From Melieria omissa (Eukaryota > Arthropoda > Insecta > Diptera > Ulidiidae), in assembly GCA_963971225.1 (NCBI GenBank), contig OZ020269.1:31889264-31953263 (forward strand): a DNA stretch of 64,000 bases, written 5' to 3'. Below, in pieces: positions 31,082 through 61,284 of this stretch. A program made the translations under genes and the position numbers. Numbering within the stretch: the first letter of the stretch is position 1; every line of letters starts with the position of its first letter. A model generated the notes under the pieces. It was given only the letters and a program-made list of their open reading frames with translations, did no database searches and was not told the origin of the DNA.

Positions 31082-31958
31082 GTGCGGCCTTGTGAATACA
31101 GAAGATACAGAAGAAGTTAAGATATTTTATTTTATTCGTGTTGATACATTTCGGTAGCACAGAAATATTCATAAAAATTATTTCTAGCCGATGGCTTTTT
31201 CCCAAAGAGTGTGTGTTTTATTTAAACCAATTTTACATTTCGCAGTTTCCACCGCCAATAGAAGATGGTGGAAATATTTTGGTCGTTCGAGCCGGATATT
31301 AGCGACCAATGGAGCGCCCATTTTTTCGATTCCTTTGTGCGCGAAAAATCGGATGAGCAGACGAAAGAAACGGGACATTTCCAGCGAACAGCGTAGTGCG
31401 TGAAGAGCGGGACGAGCGCAGTGAGGCGCGAGAACAGGGCGCAAGGAACGAGAAAAGGGAAAAAGGAGCGAGTCGCCGATTGTTGCGCAATTCGTTTTTC
31501 TGTTCACTCGATCAGTGAATGTTGAGGTGAAAGTATCGTTCAGAAGTTCGGAAGTTAAAAAGTGTGTTTGAAGGGTGTGAAATTTAAAAAGAGAAAGGAA
31601 AAGCAGCAGCAATCGGTGAGCTACAGTCCACTAGGAGCTTGGTGCGGGTAGTCTGATTTAGAGAGCAAATGTGTTACTATTGTGCACGAAAAATCGTTTG
31701 ATCTTCAGTTGAATGCTTGTTTGGTGCATGCGTTTTAGTTCGAGTAAGCATATTGTCATAATTGTTGTGCACGGAAATTTCGTTTGTGTGCCAGTTGGGT
31801 GCTTGGCTGTATTCTTAAACGTACTTATGCAAAGCAGTGATGCATCACTACTGCCGCAGTGAAACATTTTCTGAATGCTACTGCGATGCTTTGCATAAAT
31901 CTGGTTGGCATCACTTTTTTGTTTAGGAATTCATTTCATGCGCAACATTGTTAATAAG
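31082..31958. other. no recognisable gene
   Basis: Moderately GC-rich, GA-rich segment with a GCGAGTCGCCGATTGTTGCGC stretch near 31465. No coding match on either strand. Confidence 0.35.
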
Positions 31959-32092
31959 ATGGAGGCGGTAATAAATTGCATGTTGGAATTATTTTCAGAT
32001 TTGGCAAGTGAGCCAATCTGCAATAACGCAAAATATATTGCAAAATTTAAAAGCCGAAAACGAAAACTATTAATCGCTGCTCCATTCCACTG

Positions 32093-35008
32093 CACTGTGG
32101 TCGCTTCCATAGGCCAAAAATAAAAAAATCGAAGTTCAAATTTTAAAATTAAAAGTACCTAGATGGTCTCCCATATAATCAAGCTTTCTAACGGTAAATT
32201 TTTTTTGGTGTGATTCTTGCGGTACTTTCTGCAAATAGCATCAGAAGTGAGAACATTTGTTCACTTGGTTAGTGCAGTGTGAGCAGCGTGTTACAATAAT
32301 CAATTTTATAGTGTTAAAAACTTTATTAAAAAATCACCAAATTTAAAATTGAAAAAATGGATATTGAACACACAGGTAGTGAACTTAATTTTATTTCATG
32401 ATATATATTTAAATTTATGTGTACTTAAAAACAAAAATCAAAAATCACAACTAGTATATTCTGTGTTTTTCGTCTGAATTCTAGAATTTCACTTAAAGTT
32501 TTAGTTGTGTTCCCCCGCGTTGCCCCCATTGATATTTATTTCTTTGTACTAAGTCACGTTTTGAGATTATAATGTGTTAGTTTCAGCTGCCAGAATTTGC
32601 CAGGCTTCGTGCAATCTTCCACAGACTGTGAGTGTCTTTACTGAAAATGCGGAGCAAACCCAGAAGTGCAAAAGAAGCTTGGCATTTTGTGCGGTGGTGT
32701 TGTTGTTTGTTAGTGTTTTTGTGTTGTTGTTTGTAAGTAAAGTGATGCAAATAAAATGTGTTTTGCAATTTTTTACTTTTATGTTTTAAGGCACATCTTA
32801 TCAATGCGTGTTTTCGCACTTGTATATATTTGAAATTTGGAGTTCCGAAAGGGGTACAAACGCCAAAAAAGTGCGAAAGGTGTTAGAAACAGTGCACATG
32901 AACTTTGAAAAAAAGGGCTGTAAAATAGAATCAGAAGAGTTGCTCACATGCATTAATTATATTTGCAAAAAAATTTCAATGTTTTGGCAACGTTGCAAGC
33001 GCACAAAGTCATTAATTGTGCACAACTATTCTGATTGGCTTGCTATAAAGGAAACTATTTCTTTAAATTGTGATGTTCAAAGATCAAGGCCAAATAGAGA
33101 CCGTGGTCGTCCTAAAACTGACTTTGCAGAGTCTTCAAAGAGAACGAAGCGACGGCGAATAGCCGAACTAGCAAAAAGTAATGAGACTGCTGCTTCTGCT
33201 TTACGTGCTGCCAACTTACAGCCCAAACCAACGTTTTCACAAGCAAATATTAATGAAGTTTTATCACTTATAATGGAAACAAATTTAACAAAACACCAAT
33301 ATTTAGTTATTCGAAACTTCATAAACCGTAAAGTGTCTTATGATTTGTTACCCAGTTACGACAATGTTTTGAAAGGCAAGCAAAATTGTTACCCAGAGAA
33401 AATTACTGTGAGTGAATCCCACGCTGAAGTCGAACTGCAAAGTTTACTTGACCATACAGCTTCGCGAATACTAGAGCTGCAGAGTAATGTAATCGACGAT
33501 ATTACAGATGATTCCGTAAATAGCCTCACTTTAATAGGAAAATGGGGTTTCGACGGCAGCACGGGACATAGCGAGTATAAACAAAAAGTTTCTGATAGTA
33601 ATTTGGAAGACAGCAGTTTATTTGTTACCTCGTACGTACCGCTTCAACTTATATCTAAATCAGATGAGTCCCACAATATTAAAATAATTTGGAAAAATCC
33701 TCGGCCATCGTCGACCCGTTACTGCAGACCAATTAGGTTTCAATTTAAGAAAGAGACCACTCAAGTGTCTATTGATGAAGAGAGGTATTTTAGAAAAAAA
33801 ATTAGCATGTTACAGGCAACACAATTCGTTACACCTGATAGGAAAATACGCATTGAACATAGCCTGCAGCTCACTATGGTTGATGGTAAAGTATGTAACG
33901 CTTTAAGCCAAACGTCCTCTGCAAAATGCTACATATGTGATGCGAAACCGACAGAAATGAATAATGTAGAAGAATGTCTACAAAAAGAAGTTCACGAAAG
34001 CCGCTATGAATTTGGGTTGTCACCCCTACACTCGTATATACGATTTTTTGAGTATTTTGTGCATGTCTCATATAGACTCGACCAAAAACTTTGGCAAATT
34101 AGGTCCCCCGAAGGAAAAGTAAAACTTTTGGCAAGAAAACTAATTATTCAATCGGAATTTCGGAAAAAAATGGGTTTAATAGTAGACAGACCGAAAGCTG
34201 GAGGTAGTGGGACGTCTAATGACGGAAACACGGCAAGAAAATTTTTCAATAACCCTGATTTGGCTGCTGATATTACGGGCATTGATAAGGATATAATTGT
34301 CAGATGTGCAACAATATTGCAAGCTTTGTCTTCGGGTTATAAGATAAATGTCGAAAAATTCAGGAAATATGCGCTCGATACTGCTAAGAGGCTGATAGAG
34401 ATGTATCCGTGGTACTATCTTCCACCTTCTATTCACAAAATTTTAATTCACGCACCTGACGTCATAAACTATGCGCTAGTATCTATTGGGGAGCTCTCTG
34501 AGGAAGCTGCTGAATCTAAAAATAAGGATATAAAAAAGTTTAGGCTTCAGCACACGCGTAAATTTTCACGCGTTTCAACGAATACTGATTTAATAAACAG
34601 ATTGCTTTTGAGCTCAGATCCTTTTATCACAGGACAGAGAAAGTTGCAATGCAAACCAAAATCAACTTTAATGAAATCAGTTTTTGATTTGCTGGAGGAT
34701 TGACCATAATGCATATTACTTATTTAATTACTTTAATGAATTCCATATTTTTTGTTGTTTTGAGTTAATAAACTGTATATATATTTGACTTTTGTCGAAA
34801 AAATCTTGGAAACAATTAGTTTTTCATTAAAAAAAGCACAACTTTTTATCATTGCCTTTCATGGGGGCAAGCGTATAGATGTCCGACCACGCCCATTTTC
34901 ACATGAAATCATTTCTACATTCTCAGGAACCTGTGACCGAAGTTTCAGGTTGATATCTCTGCTAGAAGTATTTTTGACCGCTACGCCCATATAAGTCCGA
35001 CCACTGTG
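32093..35008 (+). mobile_element. Transib/RAG1-like DNA transposon, apparently complete
   Basis: A 2,916-bp element flanked by perfect 5-bp target duplications CACTG (32088-32092 and 35009-35013). The ends are CACTGTGGTCG (left) and, inverted, CACAGTGGTCG (right). Transib transposons and V(D)J recombination signals share ends of the CACWRTG / CACAGTG type and a 5-bp duplication, and the encoded protein is RAG1-like. A second GTCCGACCACGCCCA motif lies inside the right end (near 34880). The element contains one two-exon gene and little else. Nothing in the ends or gene shows decay, so the insertion may be young. Confidence 0.88.
32357..34703 (+). CDS. RAG1-like (Transib superfamily) transposase, two exons
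   Basis: Exon 1 is 32357-32375 (MDIEHT plus one base). A 415-bp intron (GTAGTG...TTTTAAG) follows, and exon 2 is 32791-34703. The long frame has no ATG before residue 31, so the spliced start is preferred. Counting residues from the GTG at 32808, a basic region (RSRPNRDRGRPKTDF, KRTKRRR) spans 92-118. The RAG1-type core follows: Asp249 in GKWGFDGSTG, Asp359 in TMVDGKV, Cys374/Cys377 in CYICDA, SEFRKKMGL and DGNTARKFF (449-480), His543/His548 in HKILIHAP, and Glu569 in AAESKNKDIKKFR. By spacing and local sequence these match the RAG1 catalytic Asp-Asp-Glu and zinc-binding CxxC...HxxxxH. The final segment FSRVSTNTDLINRLLLSSDP also fits. RAG1 RING and nonamer-binding regions are not evident. No stop or frameshift is seen. 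Role: cut-and-paste transposition in the nucleus. The assignment is from motif comparison by eye. Confidence 0.8.
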
Positions 35009-35340
35009 CACTGCAGCAAAGTTATAAGGAAGGTTCCCAAATGCAAGGAAATTTTCGAGACAGTCAAAGAGATGCCAAACGATATATTTTACTCTCATTT
35101 CAGAATGCAAATACAAACTTTCGAGGTACGAATGTGTAATACAAATATAATTCTTTAACTGCAGTTTCTTTTTTAGGGATTACGTGAAATGGTTCGGCCA
35201 CTCTGGCCCAAAGCAGAAACCGGTCGTCCAAATATTCCTCTTGAGCATGCGCTCACTTGATTGGTAGGTCAGTCCCGGCGGAACTTCTGTTTTCTAAAGC
35301 CGGTTCAACTGCTACAGAAAGCCGAAGCAGACTAACAACC

Positions 35341-47474: not shown

Positions 47475-49735
47475 CAGTCAAACCTGGATAAGTGAGAACT
47501 GGATAAGTGAGAAAACTCTATAAGTGAGAGTAATAGCCAGGACCCGTCATTTTAAGCTCCCAAAACCTCTATTAGCGAGAAACAGAAACCTCTGTAAGAG
47601 AGAGTCGTTTTTCCCTCATAGACCTCCGTTAGTGAGACTGCTACTTATCTATACCTCTATAAGCGACAGTCGAGCTTTATTTACAAATTTAACGTGTGCT
47701 ATTTTATGACTCATTCTTAACTTTCGTGGAACTTCCTACCATTGTTTTTGTATTCTCGTCAATTTTGTATCTATCGTATCGTATCTATTTCGTGAAACTA
47801 ACTGTTGTTATTTTATCGCATTCTTTTCAAATGGACACGTGTGCCTGTGTACCGTCCTGTTTGTCGGACTTACTCAGTTTATAGTTATCAATTGCGAAGG
47901 AAAGTTGTGTTCTGCATCATGTCAAAACGGAAAATGAAAGTACTGTCATTAAGTGATAAACTTAAAATAGTGAATGCGTTTGAATCCGGAAAATCGCGAA
48001 ATGAAATTCAGAGGGAGTTTAATTTACCAGAATCCACCTATTATAAAATTATAAAATCAAAAGACTCTATAAAGTCTGAGTGCTCTGATGGACATGGAAA
48101 TATTAAGAGGGCTAGAGTTTCTGAATTTCCCAATATCGAAAAGTGCCTTTTGGAATGGATAAAACAAACTCTCGATAAGAATATTCCCATAGATGGACCT
48201 TTGTTGAAAGAAAAATCAAAAGAGTTTGCTACAAAACTAGGAATCCAGAACTTTTCTGCTAGCAACGGCTGGTTAGAGGGTTTTAAAAGGCGTCATGACA
48301 TAGCTTTTAAAAAAGCAGCTGGAGAAAGTAAATCTGTGGACCAAGGTGTGTGCAACCACTGGACTGAAGATCTGCCAAATCTTTTAGAAGGGTATGAACC
48401 AGACGATATTTACAACGCGGATGAAACTGCTTTGTTTTTTAAGTGCCTTCCGGATAAAACGTTTACGTTTAAAGGCGAAAAATGCCATGGAGGAAAACAA
48501 AGCAAGGAACGCCTTACACTTCTCCAGTGTGTAAACATGAGTGGTACGGACAAACTCCCACTTCTCATCATCGGGAAATCAAAGCGACCTAGATGTTTTA
48601 AAGGTGTCAAGACTCTACCCGTTGATTATGCCAACAATACAAAGGCTTGGATGACCAAGATATTATTTAAAGATTGGTTGAAAAAAGTTGACAAACAAAT
48701 GAAGATAAATCGAAAAAAAATTCTGCTATTCATTGACAACTGTGCTGCCCATACGGACTTACCAACACTTGCAAACGTAAAAGTAATGTTTTTACCTGCT
48801 AACACCACTAGTAAACTTCAACCATTAGATCAAGGCGTCATTCACACTTTTAAACGCTTTTATCGCAGAGAAGTCGTTAAACATATTCTTACGAATCTGG
48901 AAGAAAACAGTAGCCCTGACATTAACGTACTTCTAGCTATGAAATTTGCTAGAAAAGCATGGTACTTAGTCAGTGACGTTACTGTCAAAAACTGCTTCAA
49001 GAAAGCTGGGTTTTGGAAAAGTACAGATGAGCATGACCTGCCAGAGGAAAATGATGTTGAAGTTGGACCTAGCAACGAGGAATGGACTAAGCTTATGTCC
49101 CACGAATCCAATATGTTAATGCCGAGCTTCGAAGATTTCGTTCAAATTGACGACGACGTAACTACCACTGGAGAACAAACCGACGACGATATCGTTAAAA
49201 ATTGTGTGAACACCTGTATTGCTGGAAATGACAGTGAAGACGAGGCACAGATTCCGGAAACAGAAATAAAGATCATTCCAATGAAGCTAGCTTTAAATGC
49301 GTTGAAGACGGTGCATCAGTACTTTGAATACGCGGCGGTTGTTGATCAAGCAATATTCGACAAAATTTATGAGTTAGAGAAAAACATTCAAAATACAAAG
49401 ACAGAAACCCAAACGAAATTGACGGATTTTTTTGAGTGCAAATAAGTTCTAAATAAAATAAAATTACATAGTACATGAATTTTTGTTTTGTTTTCGTAAG
49501 CATTTAAAAATATATATGTACATAATATATGTTGTGCATATCATGCACATAATTTTATCATATTACATATTTACTACATTTGTACTTGCTGTGACTTGTT
49601 ATTGCTGCGTACCTCTATAAGAGAGAAACGCTACCCATGTACCTGCTTTAGTGAGAAACTCGGGTTAGTGAGAAACCTCTATAAGCGAGAATGAGATTGT
49701 GCTCCCTTGAACTCTCGCTTATCCAGGTTTGACTG
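47475..49735 (+). mobile_element. pogo/Tigger-like transposon, complete, TA duplication
   Basis: A 2,261-bp element with inverted ends CAGTCAAACCTGGATAAG and CTTATCCAGGTTTGACTG, perfect over 18 bp and flanked by TA (47473-47474, 49736-49737). Subterminal regions on both sides carry many copies of CTCTATAAGTGAGA-like repeats in direct and inverted form, probable transposase binding sites. It encodes one intact transposase. Confidence 0.93.
47919..49445 (+). CDS. pogo/Tigger-like transposase, intact, PIP-box-like C-terminus
   Basis: The frame is open further upstream, but the natural start is the Met at 47919 (MSKRKMKVLSLSDKLKIVNA), giving 508 residues. Residues 5-50 form the CENP-B-type N-terminal helix-turn-helix (AFESGKSRNEIQREFNLPES). 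Residues 60-130 form the second CENP-B DNA-binding domain (LLKEKSKEFATKLGIQNFSA, GWLEGFKRRHDI). The DDE domain has its first Asp in IYNADETALFF, second in LLFIDNCAAHTD and third in LQPLDQGVIHTFKRFYRR, about 30 residues apart as in pogo (DD30D). An acidic tail follows, and the last residues QTKLTDFF match the PCNA-interacting motif (Qxx[ILM]xx[FY][FY]), which is known in pogo transposase. No defect was seen, so the copy may be functional. Confidence 0.93.
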   Translation: MSKRKMKVLSLSDKLKIVNAFESGKSRNEIQREFNLPESTYYKIIKSKDSIKSECSDGHGNIKRARVSEFPNIEKCLLEWIKQTLDKNIPIDGPLLKEKSKEFATKLGIQNFSASNGWLEGFKRRHDIAFKKAAGESKSVDQGVCNHWTEDLPNLLEGYEPDDIYNADETALFFKCLPDKTFTFKGEKCHGGKQSKERLTLLQCVNMSGTDKLPLLIIGKSKRPRCFKGVKTLPVDYANNTKAWMTKILFKDWLKKVDKQMKINRKKILLFIDNCAAHTDLPTLANVKVMFLPANTTSKLQPLDQGVIHTFKRFYRREVVKHILTNLEENSSPDINVLLAMKFARKAWYLVSDVTVKNCFKKAGFWKSTDEHDLPEENDVEVGPSNEEWTKLMSHESNMLMPSFEDFVQIDDDVTTTGEQTDDDIVKNCVNTCIAGNDSEDEAQIPETEIKIIPMKLALNALKTVHQYFEYAAVVDQAIFDKIYELEKNIQNTKTETQTKLTDFFECK

Positions 49736-55391: not shown

Positions 55392-56918
55392 GCGTTAGTA
55401 TGATATGAACCTTAAATGCAGTTACAAATTGTAATTACAAACTCGCAGCCAAATAATATTTCAAAACACTTACACCCAGTGGCGTACCTAGAAAATTGAG
55501 CGCCCGGGGCAAAAAAATTCGCCGCCCCCCCCCCTCCCGCCCCCTCGTTTTATATGATCCCCATACATACAAACTACGTAAATCGAGTCCTGTTATAATT
55601 TTGCAGATAATTTTTTACAATTTTAATGCTTTATTTTCTTATTTACGCAAATTTGCGTACATATTCTTACGTCACTGACGATATTTTCTCGTGGCCACAA
55701 CATTGTGATACATTACGGTGTAATAAAAATATGAAAAGTGCTTTGCCGATGATTTGAGTTTTAAAACATGCGCGCGCTTCGCGACCAATCACATTCGTAG
55801 AACTCAGCGACCGCAGCACTACGGTGGTAACGCTATGAGTTCCTATCTTTGTGCATTTAAGAGTCACTTGTCAGTTCGCTCCACTTTGCTCCATGCTCTT
55901 GACCCATCTTTCCGTCTATCGTTTTTTATACATAACCTCAAATAACAAACCGAATGCGTTTGACAGATGCATATCTCTTGCTTATCGATATTAATGGATT
56001 TTGTGCGAGAGTAAGTATTCATTAGGCTTGAATAAGTGGATTGTTGATAACCATCACATGTTAATAATGTAACTTTTCTACGATTTGCATTTTCTATAAT
56101 AGCATTTTTTTCACAGGATTCTTGTTGAAGGCTTTACCACTTCTTTTATTAAAACTTTATTATTATTTGTTTAGTTCTTTTAGAAATTTCAATACAATTT
56201 TCGCTTTCCCTTGGAACGGCGTCTATCACTGCAACTCCCGCAATATCAGCTTCTCTGCTCTCTCTGTCTTTGCGTGTGTGTGAGTGTCGTGTGTGCGGCG
56301 TGTGTGTTCAAATTCTGGTGTGCACTTGAACTGTCCTTGAACTTGAAACGATCCACAAAGTCCACACAAATATAATTAGGGAATGGCAACACTTGCATCA
56401 TATGGAATGTAAGGCTCGTATTCATTTGCGGCGACAATTCTTGCAACTTAATCGTATAAGAAACGCACAAATAAGTGGTTCTACCTGGCCGTGCCCTTTT
56501 GAAGTTGAAGCCCAAAATCGAACGATTGTTACTCAACTTTTTCAGTTCACAGTAAGTATCTAGTTCGCTTTAGTAAAAATTGATGTCCGCGACATTGCGT
56601 TGATGTATGTAAAAATCGTTTTCTGAAAAATGAGGTTATGTTATTCATAACACGATAGCAAAGGGTATTTAGTTTCGGCAGGCGTCGTTTGACATTATGG
56701 ATTACGAGGCGGCAGTCATTAGAACTAATTTCTCTGCGGTGTTTTGTTATGAACAACATAACGTTTCAGGCTTGTTACAGGCTTGTTGCGTATGGAATAT
56801 ATTTATCTCTTCGGAATGTTGCAGTTTTCTTTCGTTTTTCCTATCACTAATAATATAATAAGATGATTTATCTGGATATTTCCCGGTTTCAGATAAACCT
56901 TACTAGAAACGAAACAAA

Positions 56919-59891
56919 ATGAAGAGAAACAAACCCAGTGGTGCCCAGTTTCGAAAAATGAAAATGCAAAAACTGCAGAGTTCTACGAAGTCTAAAAACT
57001 TTATGGAAGCTTTCGTCGAAAAAGGCACGACTGCACAAAATCCTGTTTTTTCAAGTGAGGACTCGACATCAGCTGAGGAAACTGATATTGAGTACGATAA
57101 GAATGCAGATGAAGTCAGTAAGAATAGCGAAGAAAAATCAGAAAAACATTCATTAAATGTCATTGGAACCAGCGATGAACTTGATATTCACTCAAATCAT
57201 CCGGAAGAAGATATTGCTTTCCGTAATCCTGAAGAAGATGACAAGAGTCCAAACGCAAGTGGTGTGAATGCTACTTTTACAAAAGATGTGGGAACTTGGC
57301 CTGTTAAGATAGATTCATCTTTTCGCGATTTCATGGTTGGACAAGGCACGAGCAGACTTCAAAATATTGATGCGGAATTCCTACAGGATGATACTGGACG
57401 ATCTTTAACCAAAACTTGGTTTGAGAAAACTTTGAAAAATGGCGAACGGATCGCTCGCACCTGGATGTGTTTTTCCCTGATCAAAAATGCTTTGTTTTGT
57501 TTTTGTTGCATCTTATTCCCACAAAAAAGTTGTCAGAGCAATCAGAGTCACTTTACCAATGCTTCGGGGTTTTCATCGTGGCGTAAATTGAATCCACGTG
57601 TCCAAGATCATGAAAATAGTCCTGCTCAACGCTTAGCTTTCTTAGAATGGAAGGAATTAGAACGAACTCTGAATCAAGGTGGAGGTATCGATGATGATTT
57701 ACAACGCCAAGTTGCTGAAGAGGAAAAATATTGGAGGAATATACTCGAAAGAATTATTGTAACTATTCAAACGCTTGCACAACAAAATTTGGCTCTGAGA
57801 GGACATCGCGAGTCGATCGATAATCTGAATCCTGGGAATTTTTTAGCTCTGCTGAGATATTTGGCCAAATTTGATCCTGTCATGAAATCTCACTTCGAAC
57901 ACATTTCTTCACAACCAGGATGCTTATCGTATCTTTCTCCCAGAATTCAAAATGAACTCATCACTATGATGGGGAACAAAGTGCGTAAATTTCTCATTTC
58001 TCAGTGCAAAGATGCGAAATATTACAGTCTAATGTTCGATTCAACTCCGGATTCCGCACATGAGGAACAGATGTCTCAAATTATCAGATTCGTCGAAGTT
58101 AAACCAAATTCAGTAAAAATCAGAGAAGTCTTCATTGATTTCATACCTCTGAAAGTCAAAACAGCAGAAGGAGTTACTGAAGCTATTACGAACAAACTGG
58201 ATGAAGATGAATTAATCCTGAAAGATTGTAGAGGTCAATCATACGACAATGCACCAACAATGGCCGGTATCCATACAGGAGTCCAGCAGAGAATCATCGA
58301 CCTGAATGAACAAGCTGTTTTCGTTCCTTGTGATAATCATTCTCTCAATTTGGCAGGAGTACACGCAGCCCACGTCAATGTCCGAGCAGTAACATTTTTT
58401 GGAACAATACAGCGTCTCTTCACTTATTTCTCCTCCTCTACCCACAGATGGGACGTTCTTAAAGAATACGTTAGTATAACGGTCAAAAGGCATTGTGAAA
58501 CTAGGTGGAGCTCAGAAGCTAAAGCTGTGAAACCAGTATCAACACAATTGGACGAAGTCATTTCAGCGCTGGAACACTTGAGAGATACGGTCACAGAAAA
58601 TATTGATGTAAGAAAAATACCGTATACTTGATTTGACTTAGCACATAAGTAAAGAATGTATGTAAGCGACTCGGATTGATGTGTCAGTAAGACAATAAAC
58701 GCTTACGCAGCATCAGCCGACGGACAGTATAACGATGTAAGCCACGAGGTGCGCACGTGTGTCTCAAATCAAGTAAAGTCATTTTATAAAAAAGAAAGTT
58801 ATTCAGAGCAGCATAGAGTGAATAATAACATTGAATGTTGTTTCTTTGTTATTACAGGTATTTAATTATAATTAGATTAATTCTATACAAAATAATAAAA
58901 TATCTTTGTTATTACAGAGAAACACTTATTTTATTATTTACAAAAGCAACCATATTATATTGATACCAGACAAGATGCAGCGTTGGTTATCAATGCTATA
59001 GAAACATTTGATTTCATCGCTTTTTTGTTTTTTTGGGCAGAAATTCTTGTATCATTTGATAGAGTTCAGAAACGGTTACAAGAAAAAGGAATCAGTTTTA
59101 CTTATGTACTTGGACAATTGCAAATGTTGACAGACAAACTGAATGATTGGAGAATCGACTTGTGCGACCGTGCCATTTGTAAAGCTAAAGAAAAATGTAA
59201 CGAGTTGGGTGTGAGCATTGTCAAAAGAATTCGAAAAAAGCGAAATATGCCAGGAGAAACATCTGAAGATTCTGGATTGGATTCAGAAGAAGAAATGCGA
59301 CGATCTCTAATTGAAATTTTGGATAAACTTTCAATGGAAATATCTACACGTTTCACAAATTTGAAGAAGCTCGATGAACGTTTTGGTTTCCTTTGTAACT
59401 TTGAAAAAATAATACAACTACCCAGAGATTTTTACAAAGATGAGCTTCTCAAAATAGAAGGAAAATGCAAGAAACTTGCCGAGTTTTATCCAGATGACTT
59501 GGACAACGAAGACTTGTTCAACGATATTCAAGACGTCCTACTTTTATTAAAAAGAGCGAAGAAAAATGAAAAGGAAATTGGATTTTCGCCTGAACAACTT
59601 CTGTTATACATTTCATCAATGGGACGCGAAGCTTACAAGACATTAGCGACAGCTTTGCAAATATTACTAACCATACCTGTTTCAGTTGCTTCCTGTGAAA
59701 GATCATTCAGCAAACTTAAATTGATAAAATCTTACTTGAGATCAACCATGAGTCAAAGTAGATTATCAAACCTTGCAATTCTTTCAATCGAAAGTGAAAC
59801 TGCTGCAATGTTAGATTACGAGGATATAATACGCGAATTTGCAGCAATTAAATCGAGAAAAGTTAACTTTTGGGTTTTTTCAATGTTATAA
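56919..59891 (+). pseudogene. TTF-type hAT transposase, interrupted by 351-bp insertion
   Basis: The N-terminal 565 residues (56919 to about 58607) contain an acidic lead. A TTF zinc finger follows (KTWFEKTLKNGERIARTWMC, FCFCCILF). The DDE core comes next (YYSLMFDSTPDSAHEEQMSQ, RGQSYDNAPTMAGIHTGVQQ, DNHSLNLAGVHAAHVNVRAV, HCETRWSSEAKAV). After the insertion the same frame resumes at about 58966 (TRQDAALVINAIETFDFIAF). It ends with the hAT dimerisation motif (LTIPVSVASCERSFSKLKLI, SRLSNLAILSIE). Apart from the insertion no stop or shift was seen. The insertion adds stops right after NIDV, so this copy is inactive. Confidence 0.9.
58608..58958. mobile_element. 351-bp insertion in hAT transposase, TATTGAT duplication
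   Basis: Flanked by TATTGAT at 58601-58607 and 58959-58965. Without it the coding frame is continuous (ENID then TRQD). It starts GTAAGAAAAATACCG and ends AAGCAACCATATTA, and it shares its right third with 45386-45500. It may be a solo LTR (TGT... start if the duplication is one base shorter) or a MITE. The class is not decided. Confidence 0.8.
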
Positions 59892-61284
59892 AGAAAAAGT
59901 TTGAGTTTTCAATGTTTCGAGAGTATGAAAATAGGATCGAAGTTTCATTTTTCATCAAAAATTCATATAAAATGTCAACGTCATCTTTTTCATAAATGTA
60001 AAACACAATTTAATTGTAATAAAAATATTTTTTATAAAAAAAATTTTTGTGTATTATTTCTCAATTTTGAGGAACAGCGGAGCTCATTTTGCCGCCCCCA
60101 AATCGTTGCGCCCGGGGCGACCGCCCCCCCCCCCCCTAGGTACGACAATGCTTACACCGCCTCTGTAAGTTCCATGGGATTGGATTGGTCCCTTAATGCA
60201 CGCCGCTTAATTTTTTCGTAAGCGTTTCTCTCTCGTTTAATGGTTAAAACCGTGGTAATAAACAATGCACTCATTTTTATAAATCTCACAAGAAATGTTT
60301 GTTTCAAATTTAATAGTCAAAAATTCAACTGAACTTCAGTCGAAAGTTTATTGTTAATCGATTTCGAAACTATGAAAACGAGTGGAATACAGCACATGAA
60401 AAATGAATTCACTCGATTTGCAATTTCGATTTCAATTCGATTTCGATCGAAATCTGGCACCTGCCTGATAATGAAATTGTTGGGAAAATTTGATGAAACG
60501 ACTCACAAGCACTTAGATAAGGCAACAAAAGCAAGTAAAAAACGAGGTTTACCCCGCGCACAAGTCTCTCAAGGTCGGGGTGGGTTAGTCACCTTTTTAT
60601 CGAAAACAACAGTTAATAATATTCTAGAGATAATCCGCCGGCTCATGAAAGACGCTATTTCCGAAGAAATTCGTGAAGCTGAAATCTTTTCCATACAAAT
60701 CGACTCGACGCAAGATATTTCAATCTTGGACCAATGCAGTATCATTATCCGATTTGTGACAGATTCTGTGCATGAACGATTGCTATCAGTCGTTAGATGC
60801 ACATCATCAACCGGTCAGTCAATTTGTCAACTGGTGTGCAACGAGCTGAAAGTTTTAGGCATAGACGTTAACCGTTGCGTTGGAAACTCAACTGACGGTG
60901 CAGCAAATATGCAGGGGCAATATAAAGGATTTTCGAAGTGGTTGTCTGATGAAAGTCCTGGTCAAATACATGTTTGGTGCTACACTCATGTTTTAAATTT
61001 GGTCCTCGCTGATACGACAGGAAACAACATTGAATTAAGCAACTTTTTTGGGCTACTCAACTCGGTCGCGAAATTCATCCGGGAATCTTACTTGCGAATG
61101 GATATTTTTCTTGACATTTGTATATGTACATTTAATTTCTCCGTTATCACCTGTACTTAAGGAATTTACTATCAAAAAGTTCTTGCACTGTTATTACTAA
61201 TTTATTATCTAACAGAAAACTTTAATGTGGGGCCCTTCTTTCAATATGCCCGGGAGGACCCTGAAGCCCCAGTCCGCCCCTGCC

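Follow-up and report, generated by a model that had tools for sequence, protein, structure and literature searches.

The 64,000-nucleotide stretch of Melieria omissa DNA analysed here (the window: assembly GCA_963971225.1, contig OZ020269.1, 31,889,264 to 31,953,263; coordinates below are those of the window) carries a complete Transib transposable element of 2,916 bp at 32093-35008, lying between perfect CACTG duplications. We are confident in reading it as a complete, young and probably autonomous Transib, with an intact frame for a RAG1-core-type DDE transposase and with bipartite ends composed of a heptamer and an A-rich motif. The element is a new member of the Transib superfamily that is well preserved, young and otherwise ordinary; its interest lies in the geometry of its ends and in the apparent repeated origin of such geometry within one genome.

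The termini are inverted, start with CAC and resemble the heptamer of the recombination signal sequence (RSS). Read inward, CACTGTGGTCG at the left and CACAGTGGTCG at the right agree at 10 of 11 positions, and an original prediction made from the letters of this DNA had correctly recognized both these ends and the 5-bp duplications beside them. It had also noted that the right end carries CACAGTG, the heptamer of V(D)J recombination, which is indeed present; the left heptamer differs and reads CACTGTG. Exact matches to CACWGTGGTCG in the window are confined to the two element ends, and four matches are found when one mismatch is allowed, against 0.79 expected from shuffled sequence.

A stop-to-stop frame of 637 amino acids (32790-34703) is open across the element. 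Together with a short upstream exon and a predicted GT-AG intron it yields a protein of 643 amino acids with a methionine start, so that the two-exon gene proposed earlier has an intact frame and an intron that is a prediction. Other splice sites would also preserve the frame (acceptors at 32871, 32886 and 32892; donor at 32379). The predicted acceptor is favoured over the later ones because these would delete QCVFSHLYIFEIW, a stretch just after the acceptor that has counterparts in the homologues P0003, P0007 and P0016. The catalytic triad D255-D365-E575, which is the D249/D359/E569 of the original prediction counted from 32808, is invariant in a 28-row alignment, as are the CxxC (C380/C383) and HxxxxH (H549/H554) motifs named at the same time. 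In the phmmer alignment the triad corresponds to HzTransib chain positions 109/208/419, each lower by 17 than its published counterpart (D126/D225/E436; sections of PMC6941560). The single gene of the element encodes a RAG1-core-type DDE transposase.

Residues 1-92 of the 637-residue frame (32790-33065) are modelled as an N-terminal, mostly helical domain, with block values of the predicted local distance difference test (pLDDT) of 71-93. This domain lies outside the part aligned with HzTransib, residues 149-637.

Unequal ends and the nonamer-binding domain

A feature absent from the original prediction is that the two heptamers stand at unequal distances from their nonamer-like blocks, 14 bp at the left end and 24 bp at the right. 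The best shared inner block, GGCCAAAAATA / GGTCAAAAATA (GGYCAAAAATA), is displaced by 10 bp between the ends, or about one helical turn. The ends are thus asymmetric, with an A-rich block at both, and as a pair their spacers do not fit the 12 and 23 ± 1 bp of the classical arrangement. Both spacers are kept in all 38 shortened copies of the element described below, which are approximately 89% identical to it at the left. On its own, the A-rich block of the window family is only suggestive, as 27 of 2,000 shuffles match it; its weight comes from the recurrence of the same block in other Transib families.

The 490-Mb assembly that contains the window (G000) holds at least 12 Transib families, drawn from 29 loci. 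Ends with 5-bp duplications were sought in the 29 coding loci and in four longer stretches, and of the ten families with ends, three are asymmetric and seven symmetric. The L021 family resembles the RSS more closely than the window element does, with CACAGTG-12-ACAAAAATC at the left and CACAGTG-23-ACAAAAATA at the right. Of its seven copies examined, six combine exact 12/23 ends with perfect duplications, and over 3 kb these six are separated from one another by 0-9 substitutions and 0-7 gap columns. The family has seven coding copies at 100% protein identity. Six loci of this young family (L021-L024, L029 and L030) lie on contigs C1-C4 and have open 560-codon frames. L020 likewise has 12/23 ends with a perfect duplication; in L033, a relative of L020, the ends are the same but the two duplications disagree at one position. 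Youth and open frames are found in at least two of the asymmetric families. In the symmetric families (L011, L012, L013, L016, L018, L019 and L031) the block common to both ends is at zero displacement, in L011 and L012 without a clear RSS-like nonamer. Ends were not found for L015 and L032 in the coding loci and longer stretches, nor for L034-L038 and the copy L026 within 1.5-kb flanks.

The same architecture is abundant across the genome. CACAGTG followed by GGNCAAAAAT at any spacing from 8 to 32 bp occurs at 1,495 exact sites (718 + 777), against three for a reversed-pattern control. Among the first 100 sites listed, all on contig C1, the spacer is 12 bp in 47, 23 bp in 28, 24 bp in 19 and another length in six. 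Seventeen pairs of neighbouring listed sites converge within 6 kb, and every one of them combines a 12 with a 23. When CACTGTG, as found at the left end of the window family, takes the place of CACAGTG, there are 129 sites (control, three), with a spacer of 14 bp in 78 of 100 listed (one counted by length). All such sites go back to a limited number of elements through copying; they therefore speak to the abundance of the architecture, not to its number of origins, and we attach no significance to their count.

These observations bear on the most serious alternative, namely that the Transib is real and that the placement of its A-rich motif at 14 and 24 bp is a functionless by-product of A-rich DNA. 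In its favour, some shuffles do reach the block of the window family. In addition, the ends of HzTransib are described, in the portion of PMC8289069 that deals with it, as symmetric and as bearing little if any resemblance to the nonamer, so that the nonamer may be dispensable. A by-product does not readily explain, however, why in two other families the GGNCAAAAAT block sits at spacings of precisely 12 and 23 bp, which none of 2,000 shuffles reaches in either family, or why 94 of the 100 listed CACAGTG sites fall at 12, 23 or 24 bp when 8-32 bp were allowed. The excess of sites over the control points the same way, with the sites counted as copies and not as independent events. We therefore consider a by-product unlikely, albeit well worth keeping in mind.

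If the spaced A-rich motif is functional, the nonamer-binding domain (NBD) is its proposed partner. An NBD with a GRP motif has been reported in Transibs (Tao et al., PMC9435367), and the GRP stretch of the window protein aligns weakly with the NBD of RAG1. The distance from GRP to the conserved tyrosine with which the core begins was compared between the two kinds of family. The three asymmetric families have 66, 68 and 69 residues here; the six symmetric families in which it can be read (L018 being unreadable) have 98, 98, 93, 97, 97 and 76, the 76 residues of L031 being intermediate. Among 121 proteins, comprising the window protein and 120 listed homologues, it is 64-67 in 29, 79 in one and 90-100 in 52, with no value for 39. 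An AlphaFold model of the window protein has two helices between GRP and the core (block pLDDT 59-82), and that of the long-type P0043 has four (blocks 55-81, with confidence lowest for the last two helices).

Short NBDs and unequal ends therefore co-occur in two separate lineages, a correlation to test given the small sample of three versus six families. The lineages were compared in a maximum-likelihood tree of 33 cores (the window protein, HzTransib, 11 loci of this genome and 20 database proteins), built with the NBD columns excluded, in which the window clade and a clade of L020, L021 and L032 are separate. Forcing the 14 rows scored as short-NBD into one clade was rejected by the approximately unbiased test (p 0.0016; p 0.003 with P0034 added), the group having been chosen on the trait and support being modest at some forks. 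The short or long state requires at least two changes on the tree, with HzTransib, L018, P0097, P0113 and L031 left stateless and L032 scored as short from an incomplete frame without GRP. Because the tree is unrooted, the short NBD cannot be stated to be a loss.

Perhaps, then, end asymmetry arose at least twice in this genome, once as 14/24 and once as the 12/23 of L020 and L021, each time with an NBD that falls short of the length in most symmetric families by about 30 residues, and in a form that would enforce long-short pairing without RAG2. We offer this as a tentative proposal, and one more easily doubted than believed. If true, the 12/23 arrangement would be a repeatable solution for transposon ends and not an invention of vertebrates or of RAG2. 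One review (PMC8355894), in the part that treats the 12/23 rule, links recognition of that rule with RAG2 in jawed vertebrates. Neither separate origins of the asymmetry nor the length of the NBD is mentioned in the passages of the open-licence literature that were searched.

Asymmetric ends are themselves on record for a small number of Transibs. In Drosophila melanogaster Transib5 and in Anopheles gambiae Transib2/N1-N3, compared here by description, have 12/23-asymmetric RSS-like ends of the general type seen in the window, with spacers of 12 or 23 ± 1 bp where the window element has 14 and 24 (sections of PMC8355894). Most Transib families have symmetric ends according to the relevant part of Tao et al. 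(2020, PMC8289069), and Subgroup II includes both kinds (Tao et al., 2022, PMC9435367). It is the apparent double origin and its link with the NBD that seem worth following. L020 and L021 share with the window element asymmetric RSS-like ends, the GGNCAAAAAT block and a short NBD-like stretch, but their spacers are exactly 12/23, their proteins are only about 41-42% identical to that of the window, and they belong to the separate clade. With their varied end geometry and, it appears, varied NBD length, these related transposases would provide a natural panel for the question of pairing by a transposase alone.

How such ends might operate can be sketched by analogy. As in the biochemistry of HzTransib, for which flank hairpin formation is reported (sections of PMC6941560), the transposase would cut beside the heptamer, leave hairpins on the flanks and excise the element. 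The CACWGTG heptamer would mark cleavage, and we propose that the A-rich motif is bound by the GRP-containing NBD. With this motif lying further in at the right end than at the left, a transposase dimer would most likely grip one end at the short distance and the other at a distance about one turn longer, much as RAG does with a 12-RSS and a 23-RSS.

Copies, age and target sites

In the copy search of the assembly, 40 candidates out of an initial 218 were scored at the DNA level and 69 out of 2,519 at the protein level. Among these there is one other full copy, on contig C1, flanked by CAGTG in element orientation. Between its duplications it carries two substitutions relative to the window element and has lost 5 bp at 32962-32966, which throws exon 2 out of frame. 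A difference of two substitutions over 2.9 kb implies a very recent common source. The window element is young on this comparison of sequences, in line with what had been claimed for it, and current activity is possible. All other protein matches in the genome, among those scored, are at most 47% identical. Recent Transib activity in flies is already known from the invasion of D. melanogaster by Transib1 about 2013 (portions of PMC11656972). According to Kapitonov and Koonin (PMC4411706, in the section concerned), a genome typically has a single autonomous Transib copy or very few of them; the window family, with two full copies found, fits this rule, and the L021 family, with its seven coding copies, less so.

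The flanks of the element, 31899-32092 and 35014-35160, when joined, read continuously through the insertion point. They form one continuous open frame, an indication that insertion took place within other coding sequence, which appears to resemble that of a PIF/Harbinger-type transposase.

Could the transposase instead be a domesticated host gene that merely looks like a transposon? Its frame is open, and it is the sole intact copy among those scored. A host gene would not be expected, however, to have matching ends and duplications or to interrupt another open frame, and the near-identical second copy, frameshifted and on another large contig, led us to reject domestication, which we regard as very improbable.

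A shortened relative of the element, 1,660-1,678 bp in length, was found at 38 loci among the 40 scored DNA candidates, one of which (L070) consists of two overlapping copies spanning 3,337 bp. The alignment of one of them, L040, with the window element covers the left 697 bp at 89% identity, an inner 136 bp at 85% and the right 229 bp at 86%. The longest frames in these copies are 79-112 codons (37 loci measured), so they do not encode a transposase, and no full-length parent was seen among the scored protein candidates. The shortened copies were most likely mobilized in trans by the window transposase or a near relative. Thirty-seven of them differ pairwise by a mean of 0.9% and a maximum of 2.1% (substitutions only), and their distances from the majority sequence separate them into two groups. 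Two copies from different groups and contigs (L044 and L059) are inserted at an identical position within flanks that resemble each other (80% identity at the left and 60% at the right, ungapped), and represent either two insertions at one repeat site or gene conversion between copies.

All 38 shortened loci have perfect 5-bp duplications. Together with the second full copy they show that matching ends and duplications of the CACTG type recur elsewhere in the genome, so that the absence of these from other copies, which the original prediction had named as refuting it, does not hold. Of the 38 duplications, 34 conform to C-R-N-Y-G and 22 to CANTG. By analogy, insertion at a CRNYG target with a 5-bp stagger would give a 5-bp duplication, as reported for Transib and RAG (sections of PMC7204232). 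Such a preference is already known, since the 5-bp duplications and the target motif CCANTGG published for hopper and transib2 of D. melanogaster (sections of PMC3276498), compared by description, are compatible with it.

Several points, in addition to the shuffles noted above, weigh against our overall interpretation. Further full copies may exist, given that the candidate lists were partly scored. The target preference is biased toward CACTG because the query contained that motif and would over-represent similar duplications; indeed, all but one of the 38 (37) have three or more of its five letters. Lastly, a search with the joined flanks showed no empty site: of 21 matches, two are the window's own flanks, and the remaining 19 cover the left flank only, at 72-92% identity, and end at or before query position 163, at least 10 bp short of the join at 173.

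Placement among Transib and RAG transposases

Profile comparison gives 582.5 bits for HzTransib, 39.8 for RAG1L and 31.0 for RAG1. The transposase is therefore of the RAG1-core type, nearest to known Transib and not closer to RAG1L than to Transib, which upholds the Transib identity first proposed. The accompanying idea of a distinct RAG1-like lineage in insects did not survive. In that scenario the element would belong to a RAG-like group (RAGL/ProtoRAG), or to a new insect lineage, nearer to RAG1 than to Transib. Superposition does show that the window protein shares the RAG1 fold and triad, Pfam returns a RAG1 match over residues 548-592 (20.7 bits, under the cut-off of 25), and the right end reads CACAGTG. 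These likenesses are outweighed by the profile scores and by gene content. No second substantial frame that could encode a RAG2-like partner occurs within 32093-35008, where other overlapping frames reach at most 106 codons, and a Pfam search at E up to 1 returned no RAG1 N-terminal domain, only the weak RAG1 core match and DUF1280. Low identity and a missing N-terminal region are also what distinguishes Transib from RAG1/RAG1L in the section of Martin et al. concerned (PMC7204232). On profile, fold and gene content we reject a RAG1-like lineage as hardly credible; the 33-core tree, which had no RAG1 or RAG1L rows, is silent on it. Assignment to another DDE family (hAT, P or CACTA) is contradicted by the profile scores and practically untenable.

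Among known systems, HzTransib of Helicoverpa zea (PDB 6pqn-6pqy) belongs to the same superfamily and has the same DDE residues (sections of PMC6941560), with 43-44% identity in the best structural alignments and a root-mean-square deviation of 2.3 over 473 residues. Its ends differ from those of the window element, which have unequal spacers and an A-rich block at both. RAG1/RAG2 and ProtoRAG share the core fold, triad, heptamer and 5-bp duplications (sections of PMC7204232), but the window element lacks their RAG2-like partner and RAG1 N-terminal region and is far nearer to Transib in sequence. Public relatives reach 71% identity, and named ones include proteins of Drosophila ananassae (66%) and D. 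yakuba (60%). No Transib was found in viral contigs, where none of 56 pattern stretches was confirmed (records near the window's genome perhaps excluded).

Feature coordinates and neighbouring elements

Table 1. Features of the Transib element, in window coordinates.
Feature	Position	Strand	Basis
Left target-site duplication CACTG	32088..32092	.	sequence
Transib element, complete, 2,916 bp	32093..35008	+	sequence and copies
Left heptamer CACTGTG	32093..32099	+	sequence
Left nonamer-like CCAAAAATA, 14 bp from heptamer	32114..32122	+	end comparison
Exon 1, predicted (MDIEHT...)	32357..32375	+	prediction
GT-AG intron, predicted	32376..32790	+	prediction; acceptor favoured by residues with homologue counterparts
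Exon 2, remainder of predicted 643-residue transposase; stop 34701-34703	32791..34703	+	
NBD-like stretch, GRP (residue 106) to Y171, 66 residues	33105..33302	+	alignment and model (two helices, moderate confidence)
Catalytic Asp255 codon	33552..33554	+	alignment
Catalytic Asp365 codon	33882..33884	+	alignment
CxxC (C380, C383)	33927..33938	+	alignment
HxxxxH (H549, H554)	34434..34451	+	alignment
Catalytic Glu575 codon	34512..34514	+	alignment
AATAAA polyadenylation-like signal, 63 bases past stop	34767..34772	+	sequence
Subterminal repeat, 14/16 identical to 34989-35004 at right end	34875..34890	-	repeat family D9
Right nonamer-like TCAAAAATA, 24 bp from heptamer	34969..34977	-	end comparison
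Right heptamer CACAGTG, identical to RSS consensus heptamer	35002..35008	-	sequence
Right target-site duplication CACTG	35009..35013	.	sequence

Other long frames lie downstream in the window. A 342-residue frame on the plus strand at 36998-38026 matches, over 18-26% of its length, 13 proteins with PF20700, including two named insect proteins, one of them called Mutator-like; over this part, identity in the best rows is about 80%, and the remainder of the frame had no match in the same protein search. An uninterrupted 547-residue frame at 47802-49445 (plus strand) has DDE_1, Tc5-type and CENP-B-type domains, and we take it to be a pogo/Tigger-like transposase. Further along, 56907-59891 (plus strand) contains two long frames, one with DUF4371 and the other with a hAT dimerisation domain, which are probably parts of one hAT-type element, and a further frame at 60333-61160 has a DUF4371 match just under the cut-off.

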